A model generated the notes under the pieces. That model was not told the DNA's origin, searched no databases, and saw only the letters and a list, made by a program, of their open reading frames with translations. From assembly GCA_019155205.2 (NCBI GenBank), contig JAHNZQ020003148.1, forward strand, positions 631,728 through 676,465: a stretch of DNA of 44,738 bases, in the 5' to 3' direction. Positions 1,225 to 39,025 of this stretch are shown here, piece after piece. The DNA is from Gracilaria vermiculophylla. Taxonomy: Eukaryota; Rhodophyta; Florideophyceae; Gracilariales; Gracilariaceae. The translations under genes and the position numbers were made by a program. Position 1 is the stretch's first letter. Each line of letters opens with the position of its first letter.

Positions 1225-2414
1225 CCATGGACATCTTGGGTCCTCTTCCCAAGACGGAGCGAGGGCACCGATCTATCCTCGTGATTACGGATCGTTTTTC
1301 TAAGATCACGCGTGCCATCCCCCTGCTGAGCACCACTGCAGCAGATATGGCCGACACCTTTTCGGCGTATTGGGTTTACCCTTACGGGATACCGTTGTAA
1401 CTACTTACGGACAATGGCACCCAGTTCGCGGCGAGGCTCTTCAGCGCCGTCTCTGGAATGCTGGGGATGAAACAGTTGTTTACAACTGCCTATCACCACC
1501 AGACAAACGGACAGGCGGAAATGTTCAACAAGACCATCGCCTCGAGGCTGAAGCACTACGTCGCGGACCACCAGAAATACTGGGACGCCTATGTGGGCCC
1601 CCTCACGTATGCATACAACCTGCAGGTGCACTGCTCCACGGGGACCTCTCCTTTCAATCTTGTGCACTCGTGCATTCCGCCAAGTACCTTCATTGCGGCA
1701 AACGCCAAGGCGCAGACGGCTGATGGGCCACAGGCGCCAACGGCGGAGCATGCCAAACGCTCCATCCTAAGGAGGTATGAGAACGCACTCTTCCTCGCAA
1801 AGAAGAGACTCAACGCCTCGCAGAAAAGATATATGCAGGATTTCGACCGGAAGGTGATGGAAGGCCGTCACCTGAAAGAGGCCGACGAGGTTTTCCTCGA
1901 CAACTCCGGGGAAAGATCCGACGAACCGCCGGACGTCACGCGCAAGTTAGCGCTGACCACCTCAGGGCTCAAAAACGTCCTGGCCGCCTATAGAGATACT
2001 GTCGTCATTGAGGTGAACGGGCTCAGAGACGTCGTCTCCCGCGATAGGGTGACGAAAGTCCCGACGCCTAGCCTCTCAGGAATGCCCGCCGCCTCACTTC
2101 AGGGACAACGCACGGAGATTCCTCATCCGACCACCTCAGGCGCGACGACACCACGGGATACTGGCAACCACATCACCGCTCTTGGTGAACCATTATTGGA
2201 GGCTCCCAATGCCATCTTGACCCCTGAAGGTGACATCCTTTACGCGGTGGACCATATTGTCTCCCATCGACAAACCCCTGCGGGAATACTGCACCGCGTC
2301 CGATGGGAAGGGTACACCTCGAAGGACACCACGGAAGAACCTCCGAAACAGATCCCGGAGAACTTCTTTAGGCGATACTACACCAATCTGGTGCGGAAAC
2401 GCCTTTCCACATAG
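1182..2414 (+). pseudogene. pol: Copy A pol: integrase core, GPY/F module and chromodomain (one internal stop)
   Basis: The frame is continuous to the TAG at 2412-2414 except for a TAA at 1398-1400. Integrase core motifs are present: FVAMDILGPLP (first catalytic Asp, near 1222), LLTDNGTQF (second Asp, near 1405) and HHQTNGQAE (catalytic Glu, near 1500-1520). Then comes a GPY/F-like module around 1940-2060, ending RDVVSRDRVTKV. A chromodomain lies at about 2235-2360, with YAVDHIVSHRQTP and RVRWEGYTSKD. Chromodomains at the integrase C-terminus mark chromoviruses and are thought to steer integration to modified chromatin. The stop lies 238 bp from the end of the convergent antisense ORF. Confidence 0.93.
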
Positions 2415-2652: not shown

Positions 2653-4743
2653 CTACAGGTCACCGAATCGCGTTGAATACTCCGCTTCGAGGCACGCCTT
2701 TTCCGTGAGGGGTTGACTATCGAAGAACTCCGACAGGCTTTCCTTGAGGGCCGCCATCGAGGCTCGGTCTGTCCAGGCCTTGTGGAGCTCTAAGACCCAA
2801 GCACGCGCCTCGCGCAGAGCCTCTACAGGAGAAGCCGGAAAAGGTCGGCCTGTCACCAGGCACGCCTGCACCAACTCCTGGAAGGCTGCCTCCTGAACTC
2901 CAGAGGAGACTCCTCCCGACGGTGCACCCGATGCGGCCACCTCCCTTGACGGCGCAATAACCGCCACGGAAGTAGCTGCGGACGGCGGACTAGCTGGGAC
3001 AGGGCCTCTCCAACGGGACTCCACAGGCTCCGCAGTGGAGGTCGGCAAAGCCAAGAATGGAGTCGGTGAGGCCGGAGGTGACGGCGGCGCGGGAACTGGA
3101 ACGCTCTTCAGGCCAGGCTGAGTAATCGGCGTAGGGACGCTCCGCAATCGGGTTTGCACCACTGGGGCCGAAGGTACCGGGACGGGAGTAATCTCATCCT
3201 CTTCCATTGGAGACACGGCGGCTACCACTGCGGGAGCACTCGGCACTGCGGCGGGCCGCAGAGTTATCACCTCAGGAGGTGCGCCCATATCCTGTGACGG
3301 AGCCGGTAACCAACGGGGCGCATCAAACGCCAGACTCTCCATCGAGGGGTCGTAGTCGGGTACTCGAAGCCGTGGCACCTCAGGAGCCCGAGATGGCGCC
3401 ATACGGGAAAAGGCAAGGTATGCTTGCCCGTCATCGTCTCCATTCGGACTCGTCACAATGGGGTGAAACTTGTCCTCGCCGTAGTCGTACCAGAACAAAC
3501 ACGGTGTGTCACTCCACGCCACCTGGATGTTGTAATCCAATAGTTTCTCCGCTTCGGAGTCGCTCCATGCGGTGCCCTTCACCAGGTTTTGGATGCCAAA
3601 GTAGCGCAGGACCCGTATGATGGACGCCGACAAGGGGAGCAAACGCCCGGTGGTCGGCTGATATGACGAGTCCCAGTAGAGGCGGCCGTCGCGGCATCGG
3701 GTATAGGAATTTACGCCTTCGTCCGCCGCTTGGAGATACGCTATCAAGGTGCCAACCGCGAATTCCGTAGAGGAGACCAACATGACAAACCGACCTAAAG
3801 AGTAATGGGGATCCAGGACCTCGGAGGTCTGATACGCGATGGTCATGGGTGTCGTCACGTGGACGTGCGGGGATATCCAGTGGTCCCTCCGGGAGTCGTT
3901 CAACTTAAGGTAGTACTTCGGACGCTGTCCGAAAGGCATGTCATGGAATTTCGTGTTATGCCAACCATAGAAGTACCCGAAAGCGGTGCATACTCGAGTC
4001 ACGTCCGCGAGATGCGTCCCCCATCGATTTCGATTGGGCCAGCAGAGGCGGTCGTATGGGGGATCGAAGGGCAACACCGCGAATCCAGAGCGCCCGTGGG
4101 CAATGCTTTCGGGTCATCCCGCTCTCTGGTGCGATCTCTCTCTGTGGAGCAGTACCTGGAGGCGCGCCTGGACCTCTCGTTCCTCAGCGCACCTCAGGTA
4201 TGGAGTATCGCAGTGTCCCACCGTGGTTGGAGCGTTGTCACCATGCACCGGAGTATGAAGCCAGTGAGCGCGATATGCATCCACGCGGTTCCGCTTCTGG
4301 TCGTTCCACGCAACCTCCGGTACGGCGCGGAATCCCATCGCCTGAAGGTATGGGACGAAGTGGTGTAAGTAATCCTCCACGGGACACGGGAGACTCACGC
4401 GCCTATCGTGGAACGGGAGGAAGACCCGCGTGGCGCGATGATCGAAATGATCTCCTAGACGGAACGGTGCACGGGTCGAGGTGTGATACACCTCAGGATT
4501 CGATGGAGATGTAGGCATAGGAGTCGGAGAACACATGCCGAAGGTGTAGGAAGCTGGATGGATGGCGACCGAATGCGTGGTAGCACCTGAGGAGAGAGAT
4601 TTGACACCGCTTGGGGAATGACCCGCGGTTATATGCACCACCTAGGAGGGAGCCGCGCCAAGCCACCATCGTGGGACTCGAGGAGAAGCCCGGCGACCAG
4701 AATCAGGCGAGGTATGGAGCACCATAGCAAGGTGCGCGTTCAT
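2653..4743 (-). pseudogene. Copy A antisense ORF (aORF), about 696 codons, two nonsense changes
   Basis: This long minus-strand frame lies between pol and the 3' LTR. It starts at the ATG at 4743-4741, placed by agreement with ATGs in B, C and D, and ends with TAG at 2655-2653. It stays in one frame throughout, broken by TAG (4644-4642) and TGA (4116-4114); C has sense codons at both. After a variable N-terminus of about 75 residues there is a core rich in aromatic residues and His, with FDHRATRVF, VSLPCPVEDY, GYFYGWHNT, VGTLIAYLQ and CRDGRLYWDSSYQP. Next comes a Pro/Val/Ala-rich linker of about 170 residues, then a helical-looking C-terminal segment with EALREARAWVLELHKAW. I recognise no family, signal peptide, zinc finger or enzyme motif. 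A and C differ largely at third codon positions, which points to past selection on the protein. Confidence 0.82.
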
Positions 4744-5242
4744 ATCCAACGGAGAACGACGGGGATGCGGACGAAAGGATTATGAGTCTTGCACCTTCAC
4801 GGAGATTTGATGAGCGGACGCGAGGAAGCGGGTCTTTCCAAAAGAAGAAGCCTCGAAAGAATCGGAGTGGCGAGCGCCTCCAGGGAGTCGGTATCCCCTC
4901 AGGACTGACCTACGCTCCGTCCACGGAAGTTGCGCGCCTGCACCGCGCACGGCACGACAGAAGACGCGGACACTCGTGCCACTGACTGGCGCGACAGCAC
5001 GAACGGTTGACATCAAGATGGAGGAGGCGCAGCCGGGTTAAGGAGAAGAAGGGCCCACAAACGCCACAATGAAGGAAACGCGAGACCGCGGCAATACGCA
5101 TCGCAGGAGTACGAAAGAAGGAAGGAACGCCTGAAGGGGAGAACGTGCCAATCGCCGGAGGCCGCGCTGGCCTCAACACCGATAGGAGCCACTGCGGGGA
5201 TCAAGGAATAAAAAGATGCACCTCGAGGACGTGGTGCAATTT
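4744..5242 (-). other. Leader of the antisense ORF / 3' untranslated region of copy A
   Basis: About 500 bp lie between the antisense ORF start and the polypurine tract. Similar sequence occurs in C (28374-28873), B and D. Only short, poorly conserved frames are seen. Relative to the antisense ORF this is where a promoter and 5' leader should lie, but no clear TATA box is visible. Confidence 0.5.
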
Positions 5243-5253
5243 AGGAAAGGGGG
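5243..5253 (+). promoter_or_regulatory. Polypurine tract of copy A
   Basis: AGGAAAGGGGG lies two bases before the LTR start. It is the expected primer site for plus-strand DNA synthesis, and the same tract occurs in C in reverse orientation. Confidence 0.85.
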
Positions 5254-5255
5254 TA

Positions 5256-5808
5256 TGTAGTACAGTGGCTCCTAAGAAAGTATGGTGGTGTGGTTTTATG
5301 GTACAATATTCCTAAGGAGGGCTCGTATTTTATTAGCTGGGCCACGGGGTGCATAATTCCGCCCACGTGCGCTATAGTATTCTTAAGGGACGATAGAATT
5401 ATTATTTATTTTAGTTAATTTATGCAGGTAACTAGTACAGTAGTGAGACCTGCCGAGGCGGGCTCCCGGCTTGGTATTTAACCTGCCGGTTGAGCTCCAC
5501 CTCTGGGGAATTAAAGGCAAGCACACTTGAGTCTTCATCTACTTTTCCGGTTGGAGACTCTCGTCGATCCACCTCAGGTTTCTAGCCGCCGATCCCCCGA
5601 TCGCATCATAGCAGCGCCTGTAGGAGCATTTTCCGCCCAATAAACCTCCCCCTCCGCTTGCTGTTTGCGGATTCCCTTTGAGAATTTCACCGGCTCGCGA
5701 CAGCGGACACCGGAGACAACCTTTAGGAACACGCACCTTTGGAGTCAACAGAAACTCCTAACGGACGTTGTTTTTTACTACCTAAAGAGAAGGGCTGACA
5801 GTACCACA
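5256..5808 (+). repeat. 3' LTR of copy A (553 bp)
   Basis: The LTR begins TGTAGTACAGTGG after the polypurine tract and ends GACAGTACCACA, giving TG...CA ends. It aligns along its length with the LTRs at 27807-28360 and 37779-38333 (reverse), 40469-41023 and 42413-42964. The following bases already belong to the reversed LTR of copy B, and the matching left flank is outside the window. Confidence 0.93.
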
Positions 5809-5921
5809 ATAAGGGCTGAATTATATACTACGCGGCTCAGTTAATAAAATACGAACACTCTTTAGAAATATCTTGTCCTTAAGCCACATGACAATATCAC
5901 CTCGGGATCCATTGTACTATA
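5809..5921 (-). repeat. Copy B 3' LTR remnant (first ~110 bp of U3)
   Basis: The segment matches, in reverse, the start of the family LTR (compare 28248-28360), including the sequence around GGCTCAGTTAAT and the CACTGTACTA-like end. Its remainder should lie left of copy A, outside the window. Confidence 0.85.
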
Positions 5922-6168
5922 TGCCCGCTTTCCTCATTTTCAGAACCCCGAGATGCATCTTTCCATCGTTCGGTCCGTGAGCGCTTTTAATGGTATTAAG
6001 GTCAGGCGGCGCTCCCGCGATGTTACAAATCCTGTACTCTAGTATCTCCTCCGTAATTCTCCGTTCCCGCGCGGCATACCGACCGCTGGCTTCCGTATCT
6101 CCCTGGAGAAGATTCTGGGCCCCTAGCTGTTCTCGACTTAGCCTTGTCTACTTCTTTTCTGTATACCT
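5922..6168 (-). other. Copy B polypurine region and leader of its antisense ORF, first part
   Basis: In reverse this matches 40220-40466 of copy D. It holds a degenerate purine tract beside the LTR and untranslated sequence. It ends with TACCT (6164-6168), the left target duplicate of copia-1. No gene is seen. Confidence 0.75.
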
Positions 6169-6445: not shown

Positions 6446-7990
6446 CCTCTTCTCAAGTAAAAAATTTTTAAAGTCTCAAAGCATGTAAAAACAGTTCGTG
6501 TTTGATTTTCGTCAAAGGTTTGGTAAGAATATCCGTAATCATGTTTTCTGTAGGGAAGTATTTCAATCGAAATTAATTTCTCTCCAAACAATTCTGGACA
6601 TAGAAGTAACGTATTTCAATGTGTTTTGATTTTCCGTGTACACATTCTTTTTTAGACAGTTGCATGGTCGATTAATTGTCCACATGAACTGTAAAAGGCA
6701 AACTAAAATTTGATTTCAGTTCTTTGATTATTTTTTAAAGCCACTGTTTTTCTTTCACAGCTTCATTTAGACTGTCGTTCACAGGGCCACATAAATTTGT
6801 TTCCTACTGCTCCTTGATAATAACGAATTCCGTAAAATGTCGCATATCCAGAAATTGATTTTCCGTTTATTGTATTACCCCAACTTGAATCACTGTATAC
6901 GTTCAAAGAGTTTCCCAAAGTCCGACGATATAGAAAAACATAGTTTTTTGTTCTCTGTATATAGCGTAAAACCCTTTTACATCCTATCCAATGAACAGAG
7001 TATTATTCTGTACATTGTCTTAAACTTTTAATGGAAAAACACAAATCTGATTTAGTGCAAAGCATTAAATACTCAATTGATCCAATTATATCTCGATAAG
7101 GATAATTCATTTTTGTGCACTTTTCTTCTGCAGGTTTTTATAATATGTTTGCTTCCATTGGAGTATTGTTACCCTTGTAAAAGTCCATATTAAACCTTTT
7201 TAAAATCCGGGTGGCATAGGTTTTATGACTTTATTTCATTATACCTTTTTCTCGATGATAATCAATTTCTATGCCAAGGAGATGTCGAAGGTTTCCAAGA
7301 TCTTTCCTTTTATACGCAGAAGATAATTTTTGCTTTACTGTAGAGATTGCGGCTTCTGATTCAATGGCGATGACAATATCATCAACATACAGAGCGAGAA
7401 AAATGTTTATCCCTTCCAGAATTCCAGAGAAGATTCCATTATCTGCGAGAGCTGTTTTAAAATTCATTTTTTGCAGTGCATAAGTAGTTCATTTGTATCA
7501 TTCTCTCGGTGCTTGTTTCAAGCCATAAATTCCCTTTTGAAGTTTTCAAAGATTCTCAGGATGTTTTATATCAAGAAATCCTTCCGGTTGTTCTATATAT
7601 AATTCTTCATCATGGTCTTCATTTAAAATTGCCGTTTGAACATCCAGATCCCTGATTAACATTTTTTTCTTCCAAAGCTACAGCAAGTAGTGTACTCAAT
7701 GAAGCCATTCTTACCACTGGTGCATATGCCTCGAAATAGTTGATTCCAATTTTTTGTTGATATCCTTTACACACCAGTCGGGCTTTTAATATTTGTTCTT
7801 GATATTTGGTTTCTGGGTTTATTTTAAAGACCCACTCAGGCTGCAGAATATGGATGTTGAAAGGTTTAGAAACCAAGATCGAAGTTTTATTTTCAAAATA
7901 AAATTCCATTTCTTTCTCCATAGCTTCTTGTTTTCTAATAATGCTTTCTTAAAGTATTTAAGTTCCGTTTCATCTGCAAGCATCAAAGTC
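6446..7990 (-). pseudogene. pol: copia-1 reverse transcriptase and RNase H (broken)
   Basis: The copia-type RT is recognisable on the minus strand between about 7970 and 7231. It starts with WVFKINPETKYQEQI, then RLVCKGYQQKIGINYFEAYAPVVR, a normal copia block. The catalytic box LYVDDIVIAIES is near 7395-7360, and KDLGNLRHLLGIEI follows. The region between about 7200 and 6446 should be RNase H and is too decayed to give a clean frame. Frames are interrupted between 7619 and 7467 and again downstream. The domain order, with RT after integrase, is the mark of Ty1/copia rather than Ty3/gypsy. Confidence 0.88.
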
Positions 7991-8640
7991 TTCCTCGATT
8001 TTGAATTTTCTTGAGCTTCTGCATGTTCCTATATGAGCCATGTCAGCGATTTTCTTAGTCTCGTACGTCTTCTTAAATTTCGTTGTTCTTGATGCATATT
8101 TTTTTGGGATTCTGTTGCAATTTTTCCCATTTCTGTACCATTTGAAGTCTTTAAACTGTCTGATTCTAGTAAAGTTTGTTCTTCCGTGTCTTCGTTTTCA
8201 TCAATATTTGTTTTTATGATTTTTAATTACACAATTTCATCTTAAACAAATTTTGCCTTTCCACTTATGACCAACTTCTTTGTTGCATTATCCATAAAAC
8301 GATAAGTTTTTGTTGTAGTATCCAAGGAATGTGAAGACTCCTGATTTTGCATCCCATTTGCTTCTTTGCCTATTTAGAATGAAAACAAAAGCTTCGCAGC
8401 TAAGCACACCTAAATTAGAGACATCAGGTTTACTTTTAAATTACTTTTGATATAATCTACAAGTTCCAAGAAGTTTTGTTGTTAGAAAAGTTCTTATTTC
8501 ATTTGCTGTTTGAATGGCTTCTACCCAAAACGATTTGGGAATACATTTGAAATAAAGCATTCATCTTGCGTTTTCGGAAATAGTTCGGTTCTACATTTCT
8601 GCAATTCCATTCTCCGGAGGCTGGTAGGATCCTTTTGCCT
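7991..8640 (-). pseudogene. pol: copia-1 integrase C-terminal region and linker to RT (decayed)
   Basis: The stretch lies between integrase core and RT in a copia order. Only short frames survive. AT-rich sequence with scattered matches to the integrase tail and linker is seen, but no continuous domain can be read. Confidence 0.6.
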
Positions 8641-9240
8641 CATGTATTATTCATTTTTCGCTTGAAAATCTGGAAATGATTTACACATGTATTCCCCTCC
8701 ACGGTCACTTTTGATTCTTTTCAGAGTTCTTCCATCTTCGTTTTCTATCATCTTGAAAAAATTCTTTGTCGTCTTCAAAGCTTCCGTTTTGGATTTTAGG
8801 AAATATACAAACGGTTTTCTAGTGAAGTCGTCAGAAAAGGAATGAAACACAATTTTCCTTCTTTTGATGTAGTACTCATAGGGCCACATTTGTCTGTATG
8901 TTTGAGTTCCAGTTTGTCATTGGAACGAAATATTCGTGAGACGATAAATGATTTTGAAGTCATTTTTCCTAGAGCCCATCCTATGCATGAACTTAAGTTT
9001 TCCTTTTCAAACTTTTCTGGAAGACCATGAGCCGTTTTGTTAAAAATCAATTGTTCTGAAACAGTTTTTCCGAGATGTCTCAGTCTTGCGTGCCATAGAT
9101 TTGTTTCGGTAAACGTGGCTGCATATGCTGAATTTAACTCTGTGATAACCTTGAAGCTTTTAAAGCTGTACGTTCCATTGTCTTTTCTGATTTAAAATAG
9201 CGTTTCTTTTGAATTTTTCACTGTTTTGGAACATGAACTA
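8641..9240 (-). pseudogene. pol: copia-1 integrase: GAG-pre-integrase and core (broken)
   Basis: The minus strand encodes the copia integrase N-terminal segment near 9110-9050, with WHARLRHLG. Core sequence follows with HTDKCGPMSTTSKEGKLCF (near 8905-8850) and FKMIENEDGRTLKRIKSDRGGEY (near 8760-8690), where the second catalytic Asp is visible in SDRGGEY. The first Asp lies in HTDKCGP. Several frameshifts separate the blocks, so the gene is dead. Confidence 0.85.
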
Positions 9241-9308
9241 TTCTTGAAATAGATTTTGTGTCCTCTTTCATCTATCTGCCCAATAGATAATATATTTGTT
9301 TCGATTTC

Positions 9309-9551
9309 TTACACATACAGTACATCTTGGACTGGTATAGGCATTAGTTTTCTATTTTGTAATGTTTCCATATCAACATTTCCGTTCTTGGTAGAGTTCA
9401 CTGTTGTTCCGTCTTCAAGCCTTATTGCAATAAGGTCAATATTTTGAATACTATTTTCTGTGAACCAATTTCTGTCATTTGTTCTATGAAATGATGCACA
9501 AGAATCAAAACACCATGTTCCTAATAATTTTGTCGGGTCATTATTCGCCAT
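9309..9551 (-). pseudogene. pol: copia-1 aspartic protease
   Basis: The minus-strand frame contains WCFDSCASFH, matching the copia protease active site in which D-S-G is usual; here the Gly is Cys. It is followed by TNDRNWF, LEDGTTVNSTKNGNV and LYV, all typical of the copia protease region. The usual D-S-G triad is therefore altered. It lies between the zinc-knuckle region of gag and the GAG-pre-integrase domain. Confidence 0.85.
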
Positions 9552-10741
9552 TAAAAATGTTGCACTGTTTTTATCTGTGCCTTTCTGGGTGGACGGGTTT
9601 TTTTATGGGTTTTGCGTTTCCAACAATTGGCATTTTGTTTTACCTTTTTTCTTGCAGTAATGGCACTCGAAATTGAAGCTCTGTCTTTGATTGTAAGGAA
9701 ACTTTCCTTGTAAAAGTGTGTCATATCTTTCATTTAAGTCATTTTTCTTTTTACCAGATTCTTTACGTAGTATTCTATTTGTTTTTCTTCAACACTTAAA
9801 TTTTCTGCAATGTTTTCCAATGTCACAACCAGGCTTTTATAGCTTTTCGGTAATCTTCTTAAAAGACTCATTATATATTCTTCTTTAGACTTTTGTATTC
9901 CAAGCTGTTGTAGTTTTGTCTTTAAACGTTTCAGTTCTTCCATATGTTTTTTTGCAGACTCTTCTTCTGAAAGCTTTTCAGACTGTTATTTTTCTTCACT
10001 ATCCTTTTTGTTTTCAATACGTTTGTTTTCGTGAAGAACTGATTGTGTTTCTCAGGCTTTTGTTCTAGTTTCACAGAATTCAACATATACAATTTGATTA
10101 TCGTCAACTGATAAACAAATATCAATTGATGCCTTTTCTTTTAGAACAGCATTATTTTCTTCTCCATTCATTGTTTTTCAGTAACCCTTTTCTTTTAGAT
10201 AGTTTGTCATGGGAAATTTCTACGGGAAATAATTTTCCCCATTTAGTTTCTCGATTTTGAACGTGCTTTTATTCTCTGTTTCCATGGTTGCACTAATAAG
10301 TTTTCGAGTTGATACAATGAATAGGTTTATCTGTCTCTTGTACAGTTATTGACAAAAGCAATTTTCTTTGAGTTTTGTTCGAAACGAATTTCATCGTTTT
10401 TCCAATGTCTAATACATGAATTTCCAATAATTCTGGTTTTTCTGGTTCCTGTTATTTCAGTTTTGAACGATATTGAACGATTTTCTGCTGTACAGGACAA
10501 GAGGCTTCGAGAAGTTCTGATTCTTTTGGATTCTGTTAAATTCTAGTTTCCGAGCGATTTTTTCTGCCCTGCTACAGTACCGTCCAGGAATTTTCAAAAA
10601 TTCCTAAATTTTTCGGATTGCCGCGTTGATTGATTCTTCGATGTGTTCAGTTCGCTGAACTTGCCCAACGCTGTTCACCGGTTCACCGGATAGCTTGTCT
10701 TTTAAAACAGTTGTACCAGCGACGACATCTAGCTCATGCGT
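9552..10741 (-). pseudogene. gag: copia-1 gag and 5' leader (broken)
   Basis: The minus strand from about 10240 to 9560 encodes a decayed copia Gag. LKTKLQQLGIQKSKEEYI and MSLLRRLPKSYKSLVVTLE (9900-9800) match the UBN2-type copia gag domain. A nucleocapsid zinc knuckle survives near 9670-9640 as CHYCKKKGK, missing its His. Coiled-coil-like Lys/Glu-rich sequence lies between. The part from about 10250 to 10741 is leader and gag start with no long frame. Stops and frameshifts occur throughout. Confidence 0.78.
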
Positions 10742-10931: not shown

Positions 10932-11284
10932 GTTGTAGTGCAACGCCCCGTCGAGGGTCTACCGCATCAGCGGACGTCATAAGTATTTCATCCGCTCCCG
11001 GCTGCCACAACCGTGGTTATGAGGAGTATTAGCTTCACTAGCCCCATTTGGGGGTGTNNNNNNNNNNNNNNNNNNNNNNNNNNNNNNNNNNNNNNNNNNN
11101 NNNNNNNNNNNNNNNNNNNNNNNNNNNNNNNNNNNNNNNNNNNNNNNNNNNNNNNNNCTCGTGTCGACCCTATCAGAGGGCTCTCTCGCTGTGCCACCTC
11201 TCATTGAGAGCAAGCTTGAACACCTTGGTGGTGCTTCCGCGACGCGGCTCGTGTCTGTGCCACGTTCGTAGTTTGCACTACAAC
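10932..11284. mobile_element. Insertion with 12-bp inverted ends inside the copia-1 LTR, contains the gap
   Basis: The block starts GTTGTAGTGCAA and ends TTGCACTACAAC, a perfect 12-bp inverted repeat. It is absent from the partner LTR. The visible inner sequence is richer in GC than the host LTR and has no ORF. It could be a small non-autonomous DNA transposon, or a solo LTR of another copia family, since its right end read on the minus strand starts TGTTGTAG. About 100 bp are hidden by Ns. Confidence 0.75.
11058..11157. other. Assembly gap (100 N)
   Basis: Exactly 100 undetermined bases, the customary size for a gap of unknown length. Frames reported across it are meaningless. Confidence 0.99.
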
Positions 11285-11398: not shown

Positions 11399-11575
11399 CA
11401 TTGCGGCTAGAGCGCCTGTCATTCAAATTTTGTAGAGTATCTCTTTCGGGAAACGTCCGAGCCGTCGCGTCTGCTCGTTCATTTTCAATGTAGAAATCAT
11501 ACTCATACTTTTCGCTTCTACCCTTTTGTCGTCGTAAACTTTTCCTTTCTGCCCGGTCCTCGTCCTCTGTTGAAT
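11399..11575 (+). other. Copy B antisense ORF leader, second part
   Basis: The sequence resumes copy B after copia-1 and matches, in reverse, about 40080-40215 of copy D and the leaders of A and C. A shared block is TTTCGGGAAACG near 11446. No gene is seen. Confidence 0.7.
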
Positions 11576-13664
11576 ATGAACCCGCTTGCCGCTAAGGTGC
11601 TCGTCATCTCGCCTGCATCCCTTCGTCCGTCCTCTCCGCGCATTCCTCGCCGTTGTGCTGACATGACTTCTTTCTCCGAGGGACATAAAACGGCGGGCCT
11701 CTGCCCTGGTGGTATTCCGTCGAACTCTTCTGCTGCTACGAACTATTACGTACCCATCCTGTCAACTCTTTTCACCTATGGAATGACTTCTCCGGTTCAG
11801 GCTTCAGAGAATCCGACAAATCCTGAGGTTTACCACATCTCCACTGGTGCGCCGTTTCGCCCTGGAGAGCACTTCGACCATCGTGCTACGTGTGTCATCG
11901 TTCCCTTCTATGACAGGTGCGTCAGTCTCCCGTGCCCCATGGAGGACTATATTCACCATTTCGGACCGCACCTTCAGGGGATAAGATTCCGCGTCGTACC
12001 GTAGGTCGCTTGGAACGACCAGAAACGGAACCAAGTGATCGCCTTTCGCTCTCACTGGCTTCACACTTTGGTGCACGGTGACAACGCTCCGACAACAGTG
12101 TAGCACTGCAACACCCCTTAACTCAGGTGTACCGAGGAGCGCGAGATACAGACTCGACTCCAACTACTTCTGCACAAGGAAAGCTCACATCAGCGAGCGG
12201 GCCGGCCTGCACGCATCGCCAATGCACGCACCGCCCTTGCGATGTTACCTTTCGATCCCCTTTACAATCGCCTCTACTGGCTCAATCGCAAGCGATTCGG
12301 GATGCACCTTGCGGATGAGACCCCAGTGTGGAATGCCTTTGGATACTTCTTTGGTTGACACAATACGGAGTTCCATGAAATGCCTTCCGGGCAACGGCCA
12401 AAGTACCACCTCAAGCGAAACGAGTTCTTGAGTGCCCATTCGGTCTCCCTGCATCTATGTGTGGCAACGCTTATCACGTTCGCATATCACACCTCGGAGT
12501 TTCTGAATCCACAAAACGTCTTGGAGCGGTTCGTCACATTGATCGGCTCGACGTAATTCGCGGTCAGCACTCTAGCGGCTTATCTCCAAGCAGTGGCCGA
12601 GAGCGTCACTTCCTATCCTCGGTGCCGTGACGGTCGCCTCTTCTGGGATTCCTCTTATTAGCCAACCGCCGGACGTTTCCTTCCCTGGTCGGTGCCAGTT
12701 ATCCGTGTCTTTCGCTCCATGGGAACTCAGAACCTGGTAATGGGGACCAAGTTGAGCAAACCCCAGGCAGAGACACTGCTGTATTATAGCCTGCAGGTGG
12801 CGAGGAACGAGATGCCGGGCTTCCTTCGGTATCATTTTGGTGAAGACAAGGTTCACTGCATCGTGAGGAGCGTCCATGGAGACAATGGCGGGCAAGCCTA
12901 TCCGGCCTTTCCCCGCCTTTCCACTTCCCAGATTCCTCAAAAGCCACGGCTACGTCTCTCTGATTATAGTCCTATGCTGGAGAGTCTGGCGATCCGCACG
13001 CCGCCTTCGTTTCCCGCTCCGTCGCAGGACGTGGCTGCAGCTGCTGACGTTGGGACGCAGCCTCCAGCATCAATGCCGGATCTTCCCACAGTTATGGCTG
13101 ATATGTCTCCTATTAAAGAGGACGAGAGTACTCTCGTCGAGACTGCTTTCGCCCCGTTGGTGCAACCCCGACTACGGAGCGTTTTGGTGCCCGTTACTCA
13201 GCCTCACCTGAGAACTGTCCCGGTTCCTGTGCCTCCGTCACCTCCGGTGTCCGCTGATCCATTCTTGGCCCTGCCTACCTCCGTGGAAGTACCTGCAGAA
13301 ATCCGCTTCGGAGCCCACTGTCCCAGCCGGTCCGCCTTTGCGACTCTTTTTGCGGCGGATATTGTTCCATCGATGGAAAGTGCCGCTTCTGGCGTACCCC
13401 CGAGCGGTTCAACCCCTTAGTCTCTTGATACTGCCTTCCAGCAGTTACTGCAGGCTTTTCTGGTGATTTTCCGTCCTGCTCCTACATCTTTTATAGAGGC
13501 TCTGCACATGGATGGCAACTGGGTGCTAGAGCTCCATATGGCCTGGGCAGACCGGGCCTTGATGGCGGCTATCGAGGAGAACTTCGAGTGGTCTATGAGA
13601 TCAAAGCGCTAATGGTGAAGGCTCGACTAGAAGCGGAGAATGCGACACGGTTTGGTGACCTGTA
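11576..13664 (+). pseudogene. Copy B antisense ORF (aORF), in frame but with many stops
   Basis: This homologue of the antisense ORF of A and C starts at the ATG at 11576. One frame runs from there to 13612 with no net shift, interrupted only by stop codons at 12002-12004, 12101-12103, 12119-12121, 12356-12358, 12554-12556, 12659-12661 and 13418-13420. An indel near 13570-13610 moves the last part, so the family terminator (GACCTGTAG, ending 13664) is read in another frame. Core motifs survive: FRPGEHFDHRATCV, VSLPCPMEDYIHHF, GYFFG, CRDGRLFWDSSY, SMGTQNLVMGTK and FGEDKVHCIV. The Pro/Val-rich linker and the segment WVLELHMAWADRA are also present. A frame kept for 2 kb in so diverged a copy argues for long selection before death. 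Confidence 0.8.
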
Positions 13665-21337: not shown

Positions 21338-22329
21338 GTGCTCCACCTAAAGGAATCGTTAATACTCAGGTTGGACACAAACAGAGTGAGATCAACCGCT
21401 TAAAAAGCATGTCGAGGTATCGAAAGTACAAAGTGAAGGCCTGGAGAAGAAAAAAACGGCAATGATGAGCCAAATATCTCAAGTGCAGTGTAAACTGCCC
21501 AAATTCGGAGTCGGGATGACATCTCCTTCTCGGAAAGACCTTTAGCCGTAGAAACTTTACTTGTACTGAGTGGTACCATGAATAGACTCAGTGAAAAGGT
21601 ATTGAAAGATGATGCGTCTAATACTCGCTTGGAAAGCAAAAAGTTTCCGGCGAAGTATAGAAGCAGAAATATTTTTGAAGTTGGACAGTAAAACGTTTCT
21701 GTTGAGCACTCTCAAAATAAAACAATGGAAGAAGCACCGAAATTCATACCCAATCAGACTTTACGACTTGGAGATTATACCAATACGTCTCATTGAATCG
21801 TTAAAAATTGCAGTTATAGTGTTCTGTAGGAGATGCCGTGGAATTTTGCCGACAATCCCAAAATCGATTATGAACAAAGGAAAGCAAAAACTGGACCCTA
21901 AGTTATTCTAGTTTTCCAAAAGAATGATAAGAAGATACAAAAACCGAATCTAGGTGTGAAAAAGTTCCAAAGAATGATGATAAAGGACATCAATAAAGTT
22001 GAATTGTTCTAGTTGAGGTCTGAGACGTCAAGCATTCAAAGGGGGAAACGTTTGGCAAAAAGTAGGATAATTTGGAGTGAGTGCTTGCAGAATTCGCGTC
22101 TGTTTTCGAAACGGAGATACCGGCTGGATTGCCACCAAAAAGATTCTTTGATCATGAGATCCAGGTGAAGAAGACTCAAAACCTTAACACCATCCGTTAC
22201 TCTAGCTGCCTGCTGTCGAATAAGAAGCAGCAAAGGAATTTGTGGAGAAGATGCTGAGAGCTAGGAAGACAAAGCGAATCAAATAAACGTATGGAGCTTA
22301 GTTACTTTTTGGTGTGACAAAACTTTAAA
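21338..22329 (+). pseudogene. pol: Element E protease and pre-RT linker (decayed)
   Basis: No clean protease active site can be read. Around 21815-21880 the sequence encodes a block close to LGMPW..NP.IDY, the usual linker between protease and RT in Ty3/gypsy elements, across a frame change. A 100-codon frame at 21609-21911 overlaps it. The rest holds short frames only. Confidence 0.55.
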
Positions 22330-23039
22330 GGAGAAAGAGTCTTAGACTATCAAGCACTTAGTCGAATCACTAAGAAAAGTAACGCTTCCATCCTGAAGTT
22401 CAATGCGATGTATGCTAGGCTTGAGGCAGTATATTACTTCTTCAAGTTGTATCTCAAGATAGGATTCAATCAAATTTGGTTGAAGCCAGAGGATATCCAA
22501 AAGACTGCGTTTAACACAAAGTATGGCACTTTGAGTATCTTTTTATGCCCGTGGGGCTTTGAAATGCTCCGAAGACATTTCAAAAGTTTTATGAACCAGC
22601 TCTTTTACAATTGAATTGATACTTTTCTGGTGGTTTATATGGATGATCTTCTGATTTTCAGTAAGGACGAAGCAAGTCACTTGAAGCACTTGGAAATGGT
22701 ATTGCGTCGATTGAAAGAAAATAAGTTGTTTGTGTGCGAAGAGAGTGCGAGTTTATGAAAAGGGAGATCGCTTTCCTAGGATTTCTTGTCGGTGGAGATA
22801 GACTGAGAGTCTACCCAACTTACGTCGAAGTACTGAAGACTTGGCCAAAGCCGAAATCCTTATTTGAACCTCGACGTTTTCGGGGACTAACGCAATTCTT
22901 GTGAGCTCCCATACTAATGTTTTCAAAGGTTGCTGTTCCAATGCCGAAACTGACAAATAATGATAAGATATCGAAAAATGAAATAAAAAATGTGGTGATG
23001 CCTTTTTGAAGTTTAAAAACCGGTCACAAATGCACCAAT
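22330..23039 (+). pseudogene. pol: Element E reverse transcriptase (broken)
   Basis: The frame starts GERVLDYQALSRITKKSN, matching the DYR.LN block of Ty3/gypsy RT. It continues FFKLYLKIGFNQIWLKPED and TAFNTKYGTLSIFLCPWGF. The catalytic box VYMDDLLIFSKDEASHLKHL lies at about 22633-22692, intact in its two Asp residues. A stop at 22612-22614 splits the domain. The thumb region RRFRGLTQFL is near 22872. It is visibly distinct from the RT of the main family. Confidence 0.88.
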
Positions 23040-27806: not shown

Positions 27807-28360
27807 TGTGGTACTGTCAGCCCTCCTTTCCAGGTAGTAAAGCACAACTTCCGTTAGGAGTTTTTGTTGACTCCAAAAATGCGTGTTCCTAAAGGTGGTC
27901 TCCAGTATGCCCTGTCGCGAGCCGGGAGAATTCTTACAGGGGATCCGCAAACTTCAAGCGGAGGGAAAGGCTCACTGGGCGGACAATGCTCTTACAGGCG
28001 CTGCTATGATGCGACCTGGGGATAGGCGGGTTAGAAACCTGAGGATAATTGACGAGAGTCTCTAACCGGAAAAGTAGATACGGACTCAAGGGTGCTTATC
28101 GTCTCTTCCCCAGAGTTGGCGCTCAACCGGCAGATTACGTATCAAGCCAGGAGCCCGCCTCGGCGGGTCCTACTACTGTAGCAATTACCTGCGTAAGTTA
28201 ACTAAAATAAATAATAATTCTACCGTCCCTTAAGTATACTGTAGCGCACGCGGGCAGAATTATGCACCACGTGGCTCAGTTAATGAAATACAAGCCCTCC
28301 TCAGGAACACCACGCCACAAAGCCACATCACCATATTTCCTTAGGAGCCACTGTACTAGA
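27807..28360 (-). repeat. Copy C 3' LTR (554 bp)
   Basis: In reverse it runs from a TCTAGTACAGTGG-like start beside the polypurine tract to GACAGTACCACA. It aligns throughout with 5256-5808 and 37779-38333. Confidence 0.93.
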
Positions 28361-28373: not shown

Positions 28374-28873
28374 AAATTGCACCACGTCTTCGAGGTGCAT
28401 ACTCCGATTCCTTGATCCCCGGGGTGGCTCCCTACTGTGCTGAGGCAAGCGCGGTCTCCGGCGATTGGCACATTCTCTTCTTTTAGGCGTTCCTCCATCC
28501 CTTCATAATCCTGCGCAGTGTATTGCCGCTGGCTCGCGTTTCATCCCTTGCGATGTTTGTGGGCCCTGCTTCTCCGTAACCCTGCTGCGTCGCCTCCTCC
28601 TTGGCTTAACCTGTTGGTGCTATCACGCCACTCGGCGGTGCGAGTGTCTGCGCCTTCCAGCGTGGCGTGCGCGGTGCAGGCGCGCAACTTCCGTGGACGG
28701 AGGGTGGGTCAGTCTCGAGTAGATAAAGACCCCTTGGATGTACTTGCCGGTCCGATTCTTTCGAGGATTCTTCTTCTGGAAACAACCGCTTCCTCATGTC
28801 CGCTATTTCAATCTCCGTGAAGGTGCAAGATTTATAATCCTCTCGTTTGCGCCCCCGTCGGTCTTCATTGGAT
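28374..28873 (+). other. Leader of the copy C antisense ORF
   Basis: The 500-bp stretch matches 4744-5242 of copy A in reverse. A frame at 28465-28722 shares RARCRRATSVDG with copy A but is not otherwise conserved as protein. It may hold the promoter and 5' leader of the antisense transcript. No clear gene is seen. Confidence 0.5.
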
Positions 28874-30983
28874 ATGAAGGTACGCCTCGCTATGGTGCTG
28901 CATGCCTCGCCTGATTCCGGTCGCCCGGCTTCTCCTCAAATTCTACGATGGCGGCTTGACGCAGCTCCCTCCCCGGTGGTGCATATAACCACCGGTCGTT
29001 CCCCAAGTGGTGTCGGATCTCTCTCCTCAAATGCTACGTCGCGTTCGGTCGCCATCCATACAGCTTCCTACAACTTAGGCATGTATTCTATGACTCCGGC
29101 GCCTACATGTCATTCGAATCCTGAGGCGACCGCACCTTGACCGGTGCACCGTTCTGTCCAGGAGAGCATTTCGATCATCGCGCCACGCGGGTCTTCGTCC
29201 CATTCCACGACAGGCGCGTAAGCCTTCCATGCCCTGTGGAGGATTACATTCACCACTTCCCCCAATACATTGAGGCGATGCGATTCCGCGCCGTACCGGA
29301 GGTTGCCAGGAACGACCAGAAGCGGAAACTGGTGGATGCCTATCGCGCTCACTGGCTCCATACTCTGGTGCTCCGTGAAAACGCTCCGACCATGGTGGGA
29401 CATTGCGACACTCCATATCTGAGGTGCGCTGAGAAACGAGAGATCTAGGCGCGACTCCAGGTTTTGCTTCACAGGTGGAGCTCACAACAGAGGGCGGGGC
29501 GTCCCGAAAGCATTGCCGATGGATGCTCTGCCCTCCCGGTGTTGCCCTTCGATACCCCATACGATCTCCTCTACTGGCTCAATCGAAATCGATGGGGGAC
29601 ACACCTTGCGGACGTAACTCGAGTACGCACCGCTTTCGGGTACTTCTATGGTTGGCACAACACGGAATTCCATGACATGCCTTGGAAGCAGCGTCCGAGG
29701 TACTACTTCAAGGTGAATGACTCCTGGAGGGACCACTGGGTATCCCCGCACCTCTGCGTGGCGACGCCCATGACCTTCGCGTACCATACCTCCGAGGTCC
29801 TGGATCCGCATGACTCCCTAGGGTGGTTTGTCATGCTGGTCTCCTTTACGGAGTTCGCGGTCGGCACCCTGATGGCATATCCCCAAGCAACGGACGAAGG
29901 CGTAACCTCCTATACTCGTTGCCGCGACGGCCGCCTCTACTGGGACTCGTCGTATCAGCCGACCGCCGGACATTTACTCCCCTTGTCGGCATCCATTATC
30001 CGGGTCCTGCACTCCTTTGGCATACAAAACCTTATTAAGGGCACCGCATGGAGTGAGTCCGAGGCGGAGACGCTGTTGAATTACAACTTCCAGGTGGCGT
30101 GGAATGACACGCCGGGATTCCTTTGGTACGAATACGGCGAAGACAAGTTCCACCCCATTGTGAGGAGTCCGAATGGAGACGATGACGGGCGAGCATACAC
30201 TTAATTTCTCCAGCTGGCGCCTTCTCGGGTTCCTCAGGTGCCACGACTCCAAGTACCCGACGACGACCTCTTGATGGAGAGCCTGTCGCATGATACGCCC
30301 GGTCGGCTACCGGCTCCGTCCCAGAATATGGGTGCACCTCCTGAGGTGATAACTCCGCGACCCGCTGTAGTGCCGAGTGCTCCCGCAGTGGTAGTCATCG
30401 TGTCTTCTATGGAGAAGGACGAAAAATTGCTCCCGTCCCGGTATCTTTGGCCCCCGTCGTGCAACCCCGATTACAGAGCGTCCTTTCGCCTGTTCTTCGG
30501 CTTCGCGTGCGGAGCGTTCCAGTTCCCGCACCGCTGTCACCTCCGGTGTCACTGACTCCGTCCTTGGCTTTGCCGACCTTCACTGTGGAGCCTGTGGAAT
30601 CCCATCGGGGAGCCCCTGTCCCAGCTGGTCCGCCGTCCGCGGCTCCTTCCACGGCGGTTGTTGCGCCGATAACGGAGGTGGCCGCGTCTGGTGCACCGTC
30701 GAGCGGAGTTTCTCCTGGGACTCTGGATGCTGCCTTCCAGGAGCTGGTGCAGGCGTGCCTGGTGACGATCTGTCCTGCTCCGGCTTCTCGTGTAGAGGCT
30801 CTGCGCGAGGCGCGTGCTTGGGTCTTAGAGCTCCACAAGGCCCGGGCAGACCGTCGTGCCTCGATGGCGGCCGTCAAGGAAAGCCTGTTGGATTTCTTCG
30901 ATAGCCAAGGGCTCACAGCTAACACGCGCCTCGAAGCGGAGCATTCAACGCAATTCGATGACCTGCAGGTGATAGAGCCCTGA
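28874..30983 (+). pseudogene. Copy C antisense ORF (aORF), two frameshifts and two stops
   Basis: This is the homologue of the copy A antisense ORF, here on the plus strand because C is reversed. It starts at the ATG at 28874. A frameshift lies near 29130, stops at 29446-29448 and 30202-30204, and a second frameshift near 30425. The last frame ends TGA at 30981-30983, since the family TAG is CAG here. Core blocks match A and B: FDHRATRVFVPFHDRRVSLP, WLNRNRWGTHLADVTRVRTA, GYFYGWHNTEFHDMP, CRDGRLYWDSSYQP and YGEDKFHPIV. The Pro/Val linker and AWVLELHKARADR also match. Many differences from A are synonymous. AATAAA follows three bases after the stop. Confidence 0.82.
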
Positions 30984-32691: not shown

Positions 32692-34330
32692 TCAGTCGAC
32701 GTCGAATGACGATATCAAACTCCCCACAGTGGCGAGGCACTCTTTGCAGTACGCATCTGTGCTCTGTTCCTTCAGGAACTCCGCCACAGTGATGAGGAGA
32801 ACTTCTTTCTCCTCCTCAACAAGAGCCATCAACTCAGGGAGTCCACTATACTTTCCTCCAGGTTCACAGCATTCCAAAAATTCTCCAGCGGATCTTTTTA
32901 TACCATCGGCGTCTTGGATAACCACACACAGGATATTGTCCTCTTAATGTGTTTTGTCCTTCCTCTCGGTGGACATTCGCAAAAGCGCGACCGCTGCCTG
33001 GTGTTTAATGTCAGGGCGGTGGACAGTGTCATACTCGGACTCGAGAAGGCGTAACCTCCACCTTTCCAGGCGACCAAAAGCATCCGTCAAGGACAGTATC
33101 CACTTCAGTGGTGCGTGGTCCGTCCTCAAGGTGAAACAGGAGCCTTCCAGGTACGGGCGTAAAAGCAAAACCGCCCACACGATGACAAGACATTCGCGCT
33201 CCGTGGTGGAGTAGTTCCGTTCCAAGGTGTGAGGCTGCGACTCTAATATCCGATGGGTTGAAGTCCACCTTCCGGTTGCTCCTGTAGGAGGGCACATCCG
33301 ACCTGGTACTTACATGCGTCAATTTCCAGCACCCTTCGGCTGTGCCGATTCGGAAGTACCAAGATCGGTGGTTCTATTACTCTCCTCTTTATGGTGTCAA
33401 AGGCTTCAAATGCCTCGTCCGTCAGGATAGCCAATTGCGTCGGCTTTTCCTTCTCCAAGAGGCGATTTAACGGCGCTGCTATACGGGAGAAATTCGGTAC
33501 AGACCTCCGGAAGACGTTACGCAACCCAAGGAAGGAGCGGAGCTCCGTCTAGTTTGTGGGAGGGTGAGCTTCCTTGATGGCGTTCTGAGTTTTCCTGGAA
33601 ACCTGTAGGCGGCCCGGGAGCACGACGTGCCCCAAGTAATCCACCAAAGTCTTGAAAAAGAAACATTTCTCCAGCTCCAGGGTGAGTCCAGCATCCTTTA
33701 AAAGTTGGAGAACGTGCTTCACATGAATGAAGTGCTCCTCCACGCTGCGGGAGTATATGATGACATCATCAATATTCACTAAGGCTTACTGCCACTTCAC
33801 TTTTGACAGGATTATGTCCATCGCTTGTTCAAACGTAGCGGGCGCGTTCTTCAATCTAAATAACATCCTTAGGGATCAGAAGACCCCACAGTGCGAGGTA
33901 AATTTTGTCTTTTCCTTATCGGGGTCACCCATCTCAATCTCCTAGTAGCGGCTGTTGAAATCCAGCATGGAGAAGACGGGCGCATCGCCTAAAGAGTCGA
34001 TACATTCATCCATACGGGGTATCGGGTACGAATCGCGTACCGCCACCTCGTTGAGACGTCTGTAGTCAAGACGAGACCTTTAGGAACCATCCTTCTTCTT
34101 GACAAACACCACTGGGAAGGTTTATTTGGAATTGAAAGGCTTAACAACGCCCTCCTCCAGCATCCGGTGGACCTCATCGAGTTCAAAATCACGCGCATGG
34201 GGTCCAGCCCTCCTCGGGAATTGATGTACCGGTTTCGCATCGGGTGTGAGCTGGATCCTGTGCTTGGCCAGGTCAACCTGACCCAGGCGACCGGACCAGA
34301 TATCCTCAAACCCGGATAGCATCTCCACTA
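32692..34330 (-). pseudogene. pol: Copy C pol: reverse transcriptase and RNase H (broken)
   Basis: RT starts near 34330 with EDIWSGRLGQVDLAKHRIQL and HQFPRRAGPH. The DYRRLNEVAVRDSYPIPRMD block near 34080-34020 needs a frame change. The catalytic box NIDDVIIYSRSVEEH is near 33780-33735, with the usual Tyr as Asn. YLGHVV, LRSFLGL and KPTQLAILTDEAFEAFDTIK lead into RNase H, with QPIGY, TDHAPLKWILSLTDAFGRL and RPDIKHQA near 33020. The C-terminal piece ends at a TGA (32694-32692) shared with copy A (908-910). Confidence 0.9.
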
Positions 34331-35263
34331 TCCTGTGGGGATACCCTTCGAAATCATCGCCAATTTGGAGCTTCTCCTGCCAGGTGGCAGGAATCTCTTC
34401 CTCTGGAGCCGTGGAAGTCGATTCTTCCTACATGGTGACGATTGCATCGCGGTTAGAAAGTTCTCCCGAACGAGGAAGATGATCCAGTCCTGCAGGGGCG
34501 GTTAGTGCCAGTCCGACAACAATTCCTTTCTGGAGCCGTATCGGCGACTCCTTGAGGTTGGAGAGCACAACCCTGAAGGTAATATGCGGTATTATTTCCA
34601 TTACACCGTTCGCCATCATGGTGTGCTGCTTTGTTGCCAGGTGTGGACTCCCCTGTCAGAATGAAAGGCCAGATGCAGAGGTCTGCAACCAAACCTCGGC
34701 CCGACTCCTTGCGGGTATGTCGATACTATTCATCACCCGAACCTTGTTCGACTGCGTCTCCTTTGCAAGATTATCCTTATGGCGCGCGTTGGCATCCGGT
34801 CGCCGAGATGCGGAGACGATACCTACAGGGGCGGCGTCGTGAAAAGTCACCTTCCAAAGCCCTGGATAGATTGCACGTACATATCGATCGACAAAGGAAC
34901 TGCCCAATATAAATCATGCGGCTACGTTGGTTTCCACAAGGAGCCACACGTTCACCTTTTCACCTTTAAGGAGCACAGCTAGAGATACAAAGGTATTGCA
35001 CCGAGTATATTCAATGCTCGACGCGACGCATCGCGAACCGTAGAGAGCTTTCCGGTCCTCAAGGAGCCGAGAGCAGACCGCGAGAGCACGTCGGCGTGCA
35101 CCAGATTCGGGTCAGCTCCGGTGTCGAGAATAGCACGCACCGTGATGAAGGCGAAAGGGGAACAACCGATATAGGCGAACACTTTCAAAATATCACGGGG
35201 GAGCGTGCAAACAGAGTCTTCAGAGGCGTCGAATGGGTGTAACGGAATTGAAAGGCCCGCCAA
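34331..35263 (-). pseudogene. pol: Copy C pol: aspartic protease and linker to RT
   Basis: A frame of 94 codons from 35263 carries FITVRAILDTGADPNLVHAD, the D-T-G active site of a retrotransposon protease, then ALGSLRTGKLSTV. After a stop at 34981-34979 the linker continues with FVDRYVRAIYPGLWKVTFHD, APVGIVSASRRPDANA and ANGVMEIIPHITFRVVLSNL. The latter resemble the second half of the protease/linker region of Ty3/gypsy elements. Confidence 0.85.
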
Positions 35264-35299
35264 TTCTACGTCGATGGAGAAGAAGGCGTCTCTACTTTT

Positions 35300-37756: not shown

Positions 37757-37776
37757 CCTTCTAAGTCGGAACACCA
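37757..37776 (-). promoter_or_regulatory. Candidate primer-binding site of copy C
   Basis: Two bases inside the 5' LTR the minus strand starts TGGTGTTCCGACTTAGAAGG. The TGG start is typical of primer sites complementary to a tRNA CCA end. CCGACTTAGAAGG recurs at the same place in F, and ACTTAGAAGG in B. I could not match it to a specific tRNA. Confidence 0.5.
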
Positions 37777-37778
37777 GT

Positions 37779-38333
37779 TGTGGTGCTGTCAGTCCTTCTT
37801 TCGAGGTAGTTGAGCACAACGTCCGTTTGGAGTTTCTGTTGGCTCTAAAGCTGCGAGCTCCTAAAGGTGGTCTCCGATATTCGCTGTTGCTAGCCGGGGG
37901 AATTCTTTAAGGGGATCTGCAAACACCAAGCGGAGGGGGAGGTTCACTGGGGGGACAATGCTCCTACAGGCGCTGCTATGAGGCGACCTGGGGATCGGCG
38001 GCTTAGATAACCTAGGATGATCGACGAGAGTCTCTAACCGGAAAAGGAGATGAAGACTCAAGGGTGCTTGTCTTTACTTCCCCAGAGGTGGAGCTCGACC
38101 GGCAGATTAAGTATCAAGCCAGGAGATTGCCTCGGCAGGTCTCACTACTGCAGTAACTACCCTCACAAATTAACTAAAATAAATATGAATTTTAGCATTC
38201 CTTAAGGATACTGTAGCGCATGCGGGCGGAGATATGAACCACGAAGATCAGTCAAGAAAATACGAGCCTTCCATAGAAATATCACGCCATATGGCCACAC
38301 CACCATATTACCTTTGGAGCCACTGACACTACA
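37779..38333 (-). repeat. Copy C 5' LTR (555 bp)
   Basis: In reverse it runs from the boundary with copy D to GACAGCACCACA beside the primer site. It aligns with all other family LTRs and differs visibly from its partner at 27807-28360. Confidence 0.92.
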
Positions 38334-39025
38334 GATGGGCCACAGGCACCAACAGCGGCTCAAGCAATGCGCTCCATTTCAAGGCGCTTTGAGGACGTAC
38401 TCTTCCTCGCAAAATAGAGTCAGAATGCCTCACAGAAAAGATATAAACAGGATTTTGACCGGAAGGTGAAACAAGGCCTTCACTTGACGGAAGTCGAAGA
38501 GTTTTTCCTCGACAAACCTGAGGAGGCGTCCGATGAACAGCCGGACGTCACGGGCAGGATAGCACCTAGCACCGTAGGCCCTTCCAAAGTCCTTGACAGC
38601 TACAGGAACACTGTCGCCATCGAGGTAGACGGGCTCCGAGACGTCGTCTCCCGCGATTGGGTGACTAAAGTCCTAATGCTGAGCCTTTCAGGAACGTCCG
38701 CCACTCAACCTTAGAGGTAACCCGCAGGTATACATTCCCCAACCACCTCAAGAGCGACGACGCCGATGGATACTGAAAAACTCATGACACCTCTCGGTGA
38801 ACCATGGATGGAAGCCACAGACGCCATCATGGCCCCTCAAGGTGACATTCTTTATGCAGTGGACCATATTGTCTCTCATGGATAGACCCCTGCATGACTA
38901 CGGTACCGTGTACGATGGTATGCGTACACTCATAGAATGACACGAAGAAACCCACGGAGCACATTCCGGAGAATTTCCTCAGAATATATCACGCCAATCT
39001 GGAGCAAAAACGCATTCCCGCATAG
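38334..39025 (+). pseudogene. pol: Copy D pol end: integrase C-terminus, GPY/F module and chromodomain (broken)
   Basis: The start matches 1721 onward of copy A (DGPQAPT). The frame at 38466-38714 carries GLHLTEVEEFFLDKPEE and VGPSKVLDSYRNTVAIEVDG, then RDVVSRDWVTKV, a GPY/F-like module. The chromodomain follows near 38845-38990, with AVDHIVSHG then a stop, YRVRWYAYT and a frame change. The normal terminator TAG is kept at 39023-39025. Confidence 0.85.

Follow-up and report, generated by a model that had tools for sequence, protein, structure and literature searches.

The question raised by the stretch of DNA analysed here is whether a long open reading frame (ORF) on the strand opposite gag-pol in a chromodomain Ty3/gypsy retrotransposon is a gene, and how copies that have lost it can occur in the same family. 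The stretch, called the window below, comprises 44,738 nucleotides of the red alga Gracilaria vermiculophylla (NCBI GenBank assembly GCA_019155205.2, contig JAHNZQ020003148.1, positions 631,728 to 676,465 of the forward strand; G000 C10:631728-676465 in the 44.8-Mb, 27-contig assembly) and is crowded with copies of one long terminal repeat (LTR) element, plus AT-rich sequence. In the first of these, copy A, the frame lies on the minus strand at 2653-4743, from an ATG at 4743 to a stop at 2653-2655, between the pol C-terminus (1401-2414, plus strand) and the 3′ LTR (5256-5808, plus strand). An earlier note made from the window alone had described it as a long antisense third ORF of about 696 codons, and both the placing and the length (696 codons plus stop) stand, but copy A does not hold it intact: it has in-frame stops at residues 34 and 210, and its longest open stretch is 486 codons (2656-4113). 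We find that the antisense frame is a true protein-coding gene under purifying selection. On balance we lean towards reading it as the third gene of the retrotransposon, with a trans-acting accessory protein as its product that serves the deleted copies as well.

The evidence for coding comes from genomic copies of the frame. Third codon positions are about twice as variable as the other two (0.196 vs 0.113 and 0.100; 30 copies). The ratio of nonsynonymous to synonymous substitution rates (dN/dS), calculated for 29 copies after leaving out L017 (78% identical) from the 30 loci, is 0.383 for the whole frame, 0.262 for the core, 0.648 for the linker and 0.482 for the C-terminus, while four other frames give values of 1.04-1.35. 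The sense frame that shares its wobble position has a dN/dS of 0.457 and carries 603 stops in 20,329 codons; the antisense frame has 118 in 20,357, terminators counted. No sense frame is both open and conserved, which disposes of the rival that the earlier note had itself named. The pol C-terminus, used as positive control, gives 0.459 (25 of the 30 copies; L017 and L006 were left out, then L010, L026 and L028 for low coverage), and the antisense frame is conserved like other element proteins. Values below 1 were obtained in 406 of 406 pairs, the mean falling from 0.552 in the closest fifth of the pairs to 0.293 in the most distant fifth, and we explain this drop by a selected source lineage together with neutral decay of each insertion after integration. 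Against the diverged copy C of the window (67-68% nucleotide identity) dN/dS is 0.28, and 0.17-0.19 in the core; the wobble-sharing sense frame there gives 0.41-0.43 and has 30 stops in copy C. A ratio near 1 had been put forward as grounds for dropping the idea of a gene. Both comparisons lie well below this value, and the frame is therefore taken to be one. Antisense transcripts that regulate their element are discussed in PMC7264820 (consulted, like all papers cited here, in partial text), and one might suppose that only the antisense RNA matters, as a non-coding regulator with the open frame a by-product; we give this next to no credence, as the third-position excess, the dN/dS and the depletion of stops are all specific to one frame of the antisense strand.

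The frame also keeps a constant place. It begins about 500 bp from the 3′ LTR, heads toward pol and falls short of the pol stop codon by about 240-250 bp; the commonest gap between the ends of frame and pol matches is about 249 bp (54 linked places). Two genomic copies, L031 and L032, have it open across 708 codons from stop to stop, and 25 of 30 copies have ATG as the codon of residue 13. As lower bounds, the genome has 89 matches to the 486-residue part and 151 to that of copy C. The frame occurs in the A-type subfamily and in the diverged C-type one, on the strand opposite gag-pol and in the interval from pol to the 3′ LTR. Among the matches listed, an antisense frame accompanies 54 of the 119 pol places and a pol accompanies 54 of the 156 frames; in 25 of 28 loci checked pol adjoins the frame.

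In the protein of about 696 residues a conserved core takes up about 380; the other parts are a linker, which is rich in Pro and Val and evolves fast, and a C-terminal portion. In L031 the core has 13% aromatic residues and the linker 22% proline. No family had been recognised in it from the sequence, and our searches agree. The 486-residue frame had 0 matches among 5.8 billion proteins at E up to 0.001, and an 11-row alignment had 0 in the same collection at E up to 1. Each time the search scored only the roughly 7,995 candidates with the most words in common with the query, and it requires shared words of 5 residues, so distant relatives may exist in elements whose pol is about 50% identical. 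Pfam gave no domain at a meaningful E-value (one of 11 members reached E 0.04 to XdhC_CoxI) and NCBIfam no match for the two copies searched. In the PDB the single frame had no match, the alignment brought up 6wkk at E 0.88 and the core alignment three chains of protein SET at E 0.59-0.63, none of which we take as evidence. Prediction of the core structure, a check proposed in the earlier note, ended without a usable fold: the AlphaFold2 models have a mean predicted local distance difference test (pLDDT) score of 26.5 for the whole protein and 42.6 for the core, too poor for a structure search. As the homologue searches were empty, the frame could on that ground be a separate mobile element, or a host gene that was captured and now hitch-hikes in some few copies. 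We regard this as very improbable given the fixed place and spacing described above, inside LTR-bounded elements of both subfamilies.

The pol of the element does have relatives. Unnamed metagenomic proteins P0001-P0009 are 45-54% identical to it, several on contigs of about 10 kb, and these contigs could tell whether the antisense gene predates the host lineage. Scans of IMG/VR for pol relatives gave 2 and 19 pattern matches, with 0 confirmed.

If the gene is selected, its absence next to many pol matches calls for explanation. Match lists alone prove nothing about loss, since window copy B, in which the frame is present, is still one of the 65 pol places for which no antisense frame is listed. 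For 46 of the 65 (6 + 40, the first by pol score with no random draw; 19 others were left) the sequence was aligned to the L031 copy. One of five deletions of the core, each seen more than once, was found in 28 of these places: 1,208 bp in 13 (D1208; one measuring 1,210, and the aligner split the gap in five), 1,121 bp in 8 (D1121; in one place 1,122, as two pieces), 1,006 bp in 3 (one measuring 1,008), 1,162 bp in 2 (D1162) and 1,427 bp in 2 (D1427). No deletion of 60 bp or more was present in the stretch read in 6 of the 46, other deletions, some of them small, in 8 (L042, L051, L055, L056, L057, L058, L064 and L077), and 4 were not judged (L043 is mostly masked, L060 is without the frame, L079 and L080 are partial). 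None of the five class sizes is a multiple of 3, though the single measurements of 1,008 and 1,122 are. The clean junctions (D1208, D1121, D1162 and D1427) lie, by eye, at or near short direct repeats. Splicing can be ruled out as the cause of the deletions, because on the sense strand, read by eye, D1208 lacks GT-AG at its junction and the clean junctions are at or near such repeats.

The deleted copies have a broken frame next to a constrained pol. In the 8 translated D1208 copies the frame from the usual start runs for no more than about 60 residues; by eye, four copies end at one and the same stop and four a little beyond it. The six-frame dN/dS over the D1208 deletion region is 0.78-0.95 (13 copies). 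The dN/dS of pol is 0.423 in D1208, 0.412 in D1121 (7 of 8 copies, L084 left out) and 0.461 in full copies. The leftover linker gives 0.67 in full copies, 0.72 in D1208 and 0.82 in D1121 (65 of 68 rows found), values that are uninformative on selection. Strong constraint alongside frequent loss could also mean that the gene is unneeded for transposition and serves competition between elements or benefits the host, e.g. by limiting insertions, being kept by selection at another level and often lost. We hold this to be rather improbable: there is no sign of a host copy, although this was barely tested, pol adjoins the frame at nearly all loci checked, and a limiting function would favour the losers unless the host selects.

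How the deletions came to sit in so many places was examined with the fixation index (Fst) and with trees. Between D1208 and full copies (24 of the 30 full loci; L017, L006, L008, L012, L018 and L022 out) Fst is -0.003, -0.002 and 0.006 in three parts of pol and 0.41-0.50 next to the junction (up to 100 bp on the left and 200 bp on the right), a stretch with 39 near-fixed sites; it is 0.11 at 100-200 bp to the left, 0.02 beyond 200 bp to the left and 0.13 beyond 200 bp to the right. The same pattern is seen in weaker form for D1121, with 0.22 and 0.19 by the junction, 0.14 slightly further left and about 0 away from it. A recent origin of the D1208 deletion is ruled out by the 39 near-fixed flank differences. 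On the pol tree D1208 takes 13 changes for 13 rows (shuffled mean 11.6), of which well-supported branches force at least 4, the support being thin (7 of 42 inner branches starred). On the tree of the 239-bp flank it takes 7 changes against a shuffled mean of 11.9, a value as low in 0 of 500 shuffles, and is thus clustered; D1121 takes 4 against 7.7. D1208 would accordingly seem, as far as these comparisons go, to be one old, neutrally evolving block, apparently of single origin, that moved between element backgrounds. Among the 13 D1208 copies the pol and block distances are correlated after centring (r 0.47, p 0.003), from which the deleted lineages seem partly to replicate as such. This lends moderate support to the view that deleted lineages replicate in their own right and hence may draw on a trans-acting product.

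Several results weigh against a shared, trans-acting product. Besides the empty homologue searches and the low pLDDT, well-supported branches of the flank tree force at least 5 changes of D1208, so that it is the near-fixed sites shared by its copies that speak for a single origin. The uncentred correlation of pol and block is 0.23 (p 0.12), and the centred value of D1208 is weaker than that of full copies, which reach 0.72 with centring and 0.65 without it. Clonality is fairly high in full copies (22 of the 30), with a mean r2 of about 0.26 at less than 50 bp and 0.17 at more than 3.2 kb as against 0.05 when permuted, and a correlation of pol and core distances of 0.81. Given this clonality, the spread of D1208 over pol backgrounds could have come about by ectopic gene conversion into copies already dead, and in that case it would be no evidence that the gene is dispensable. 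This is the main rival to the trans-acting reading: the antisense protein would be needed in cis at each round of transposition, the deletions would have been copied into old dead insertions, and the deleted elements would never have moved as such. The shortness of the deletion block, which reaches about 100 bp to the left of the junction and 200 bp to its right, the mostly clonal state of full copies otherwise and the scatter of D1208 over the pol tree all fit it. The recurrence of five distinct deletion classes, in 2 to 13 places apiece, and the covariation of D1208 with pol after centring do not, nor does the equal constraint on pol in deleted copies, though old insertions would give the same values. 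Taking these together we consider conversion into dead copies unlikely.

Our preferred reading thus remains that of a trans-acting protein, because a gene that is selected and whose loss in cis is seemingly tolerated is most simply explained by a shared product. The antisense transcript would start in the 3′ LTR or in the roughly 500 bp beside it, and the protein would act in trans as an accessory factor, in regulation, nuclear import or anti-silencing; a full-length copy would serve the deleted copies within the same cell. The deletions themselves may arise by jumps of the reverse transcriptase between short direct repeats and would be carried from one element background to another, either through template switching when RNAs are packaged together or through gene conversion once copies have integrated. 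A role in controlling or helping transposition, as suggested earlier, is one that we only infer, and the deletion haplotypes now constrain it. Tentatively, the family may even be two-tiered, with full elements that supply the antisense-encoded trans-acting protein and core-deleted classes that have their own pol, live off them and swap the block during reverse transcription, in which case presence and absence of the gene would be a long-lived polymorphism; we can see this as possible but would not yet bet on it.

The copies in the window illustrate both states. Their frames were located by tblastn with the unbroken frame of the genomic copy L031. The whole frame had been assigned to all four copies that reach the 3′ part, which is not borne out: A, B and C have it whole but each broken, and D is without the core. 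In copy A the match to L031 covers 2656-4773 with 78% amino acid identity; its pol C-terminus consists of the integrase end and a chromodomain (Chromo E 2.9e-4, 21.1 bits, under the Pfam cut-off of 25.1 bits), and a putative polypurine tract, a motif match whose role would follow from its position, lies at 5243-5255 (plus strand) before the 3′ LTR. About 100 bp beyond this LTR, at 5905-5934, the start of an LTR on the minus strand, accompanied by a purine tract of its own, is likely the edge of a further, opposite copy. Copy B has its 3′ LTR at 27807-28360 (minus strand), the antisense ORF at 28871-30965 (plus strand; frame broken near residues 98 and 530, and two in-frame stops), the region of protease, reverse transcriptase and RNase H at 32902-35383 (minus strand), a sequence like a primer-binding site at 37757-37776 and the 5′ LTR at 37779-38331 (minus strand, outer border approximate). 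The antisense ORF of copy C, of the diverged subfamily, is at 11561-13585 (plus strand) with 57% amino acid identity and seven stops; a run of 100 N stands at 11058-11157. Copy D (38334-41021) is a core-deleted derivative with 68% nucleotide identity. Only the C-terminal third of the antisense ORF is left in it (39297-39998, minus strand; aligned residues 475-708 only), about 1.3 kb being gone (residues about 38 to about 481) with breakpoints different from those of the recurring classes, and its 3′ LTR is at 40469-41021 (plus strand, right border approximate). The 5′ LTR of a further copy is at 42413-42965 (plus strand), with the presumed gag, so called by position and repeat and with no Pfam match, past the window end. 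Fragments of a Ty1/copia-like and another gypsy-like element were seen by eye in translations of the AT-rich parts, at 7619-9602 and 22318-22614.

The element was bounded at two places in the genome, approximately C14:5287823-5298339 and C27:2396158-2406687, and measures about 10.5 kb. The LTR starts with TGTAGTACAG and ends with CAGTACCACA, as in the 3′ LTR of copy A; TGGTCTCCCGAC, similar to a primer-binding site, follows the 5′ LTR, and the purine tract AGGAAAGGGGGTA stands just upstream of the 3′ LTR, where by position and motif it would be the polypurine tract (PPT). The C14 copy has a 5-bp flank repeat with one mismatch (by eye); for the C27 copy none was seen by eye. Pfam assigns to copy L033 a reverse transcriptase (RVT_1, 6.7e-29), RNase H, an H2C2 integrase zinc finger and the rve integrase core, and a protease match (1e-4) below the cut-off, and gives no match in its presumed gag region. 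The Ty3/gypsy order of protease, reverse transcriptase, RNase H and then integrase is therefore seen in L033, with LTRs bounding the C14 and C27 copies, and a chromodomain stands at the integrase C-terminus (Chromo, 26.3 bits vs a cut-off of 25.1), which makes it a chromodomain Ty3/gypsy element. Its GC content is 55%, unlike the AT-rich parts of the window.

Some observations concern the rest of the assembly. Nine of 13 chaperonin matches cover nearly the whole model in one piece, so that introns look few in this genome; two plastid-type groEL genes, similar by eye, are at C19:45052-46560 and C2:14755-18479, the latter in two pieces. Phycobilisome genes gave 17 matches in the assembly, of which one pair is phycoerythrin, with an alpha chain closest to R-phycoerythrin chains of the PDB (best E 1.4e-98); these genes point to a red alga. 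Genes of this kind, the phycoerythrin pair included, occupy a 170-kb stretch (C17:3006506-3176520) within a 5.2-Mb contig rich in element copies, and a second, partial set is at C20:14835-103339. Either plastid DNA has been joined to nuclear sequence in one contig, or the assembly contains two plastid-like sequences.

Accessory genes on the antisense strand of LTR elements are on record chiefly from flowering plants and from a single fungal family, and their function is not known according to the parts of PMC7264820 and PMC11963269 consulted. In a red alga, an antisense gene without detectable relatives, for which selection is measured and whose loss haplotypes occur in one family with it, suggests that genes of this kind are a recurrent solution. 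The element further offers a natural comparison, in which pol is the same and the gene is either present or absent; there, expression, insertion age and copy number can be used to test the function of the protein and its action in trans. Novelty of the arrangement as such outside plants is not supported. Our literature search on antisense ORFs with red algae or chromodomains, with subscription papers mostly outside its scope, found no report of this gene and none from red algae, yet the fungal, chromodomain-bearing Boty is already known to have an antisense gene between pol and the 3′ LTR (PMC7264820, PMC4227169). In Boty (BcGypsy1) of Botrytis cinerea this is brtn, likewise antisense to gag-pol in an element with a pol chromodomain (PMC4227169, PMC7264820, PMC8365987); the host is a fungus, and BRTN was compared with the red-algal protein by description only. 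Grande (gene23), RIRE2 and PvRetro13 have antisense ORFs in the same place and on the same strand, gene23 having its own promoter and a nuclear protein (PMC7264820), but these are plant elements, likened here by description and not by sequence. The Retand elements of flowering plants carry antisense TRP28 ORFs, in 97% of clusters, for which a regulatory role is suggested by the author (PMC11963269); Retand is a non-chromovirus of plants, whereas the red-algal element has a chromodomain and no Pfam domain in its ORF and so falls outside Retand. HBZ and APH-2 of HTLV are regulatory antisense genes read from the 3′ end of an LTR element (PMC11963269, PMC7264820), but they belong to animal retroviruses, we claim no homology, and for the algal element a 3′ LTR promoter is a prediction. 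An antisense gene in this position is thus already known from plants and fungi, while the protein, the host and the deletion polymorphism of the red-algal element look new.
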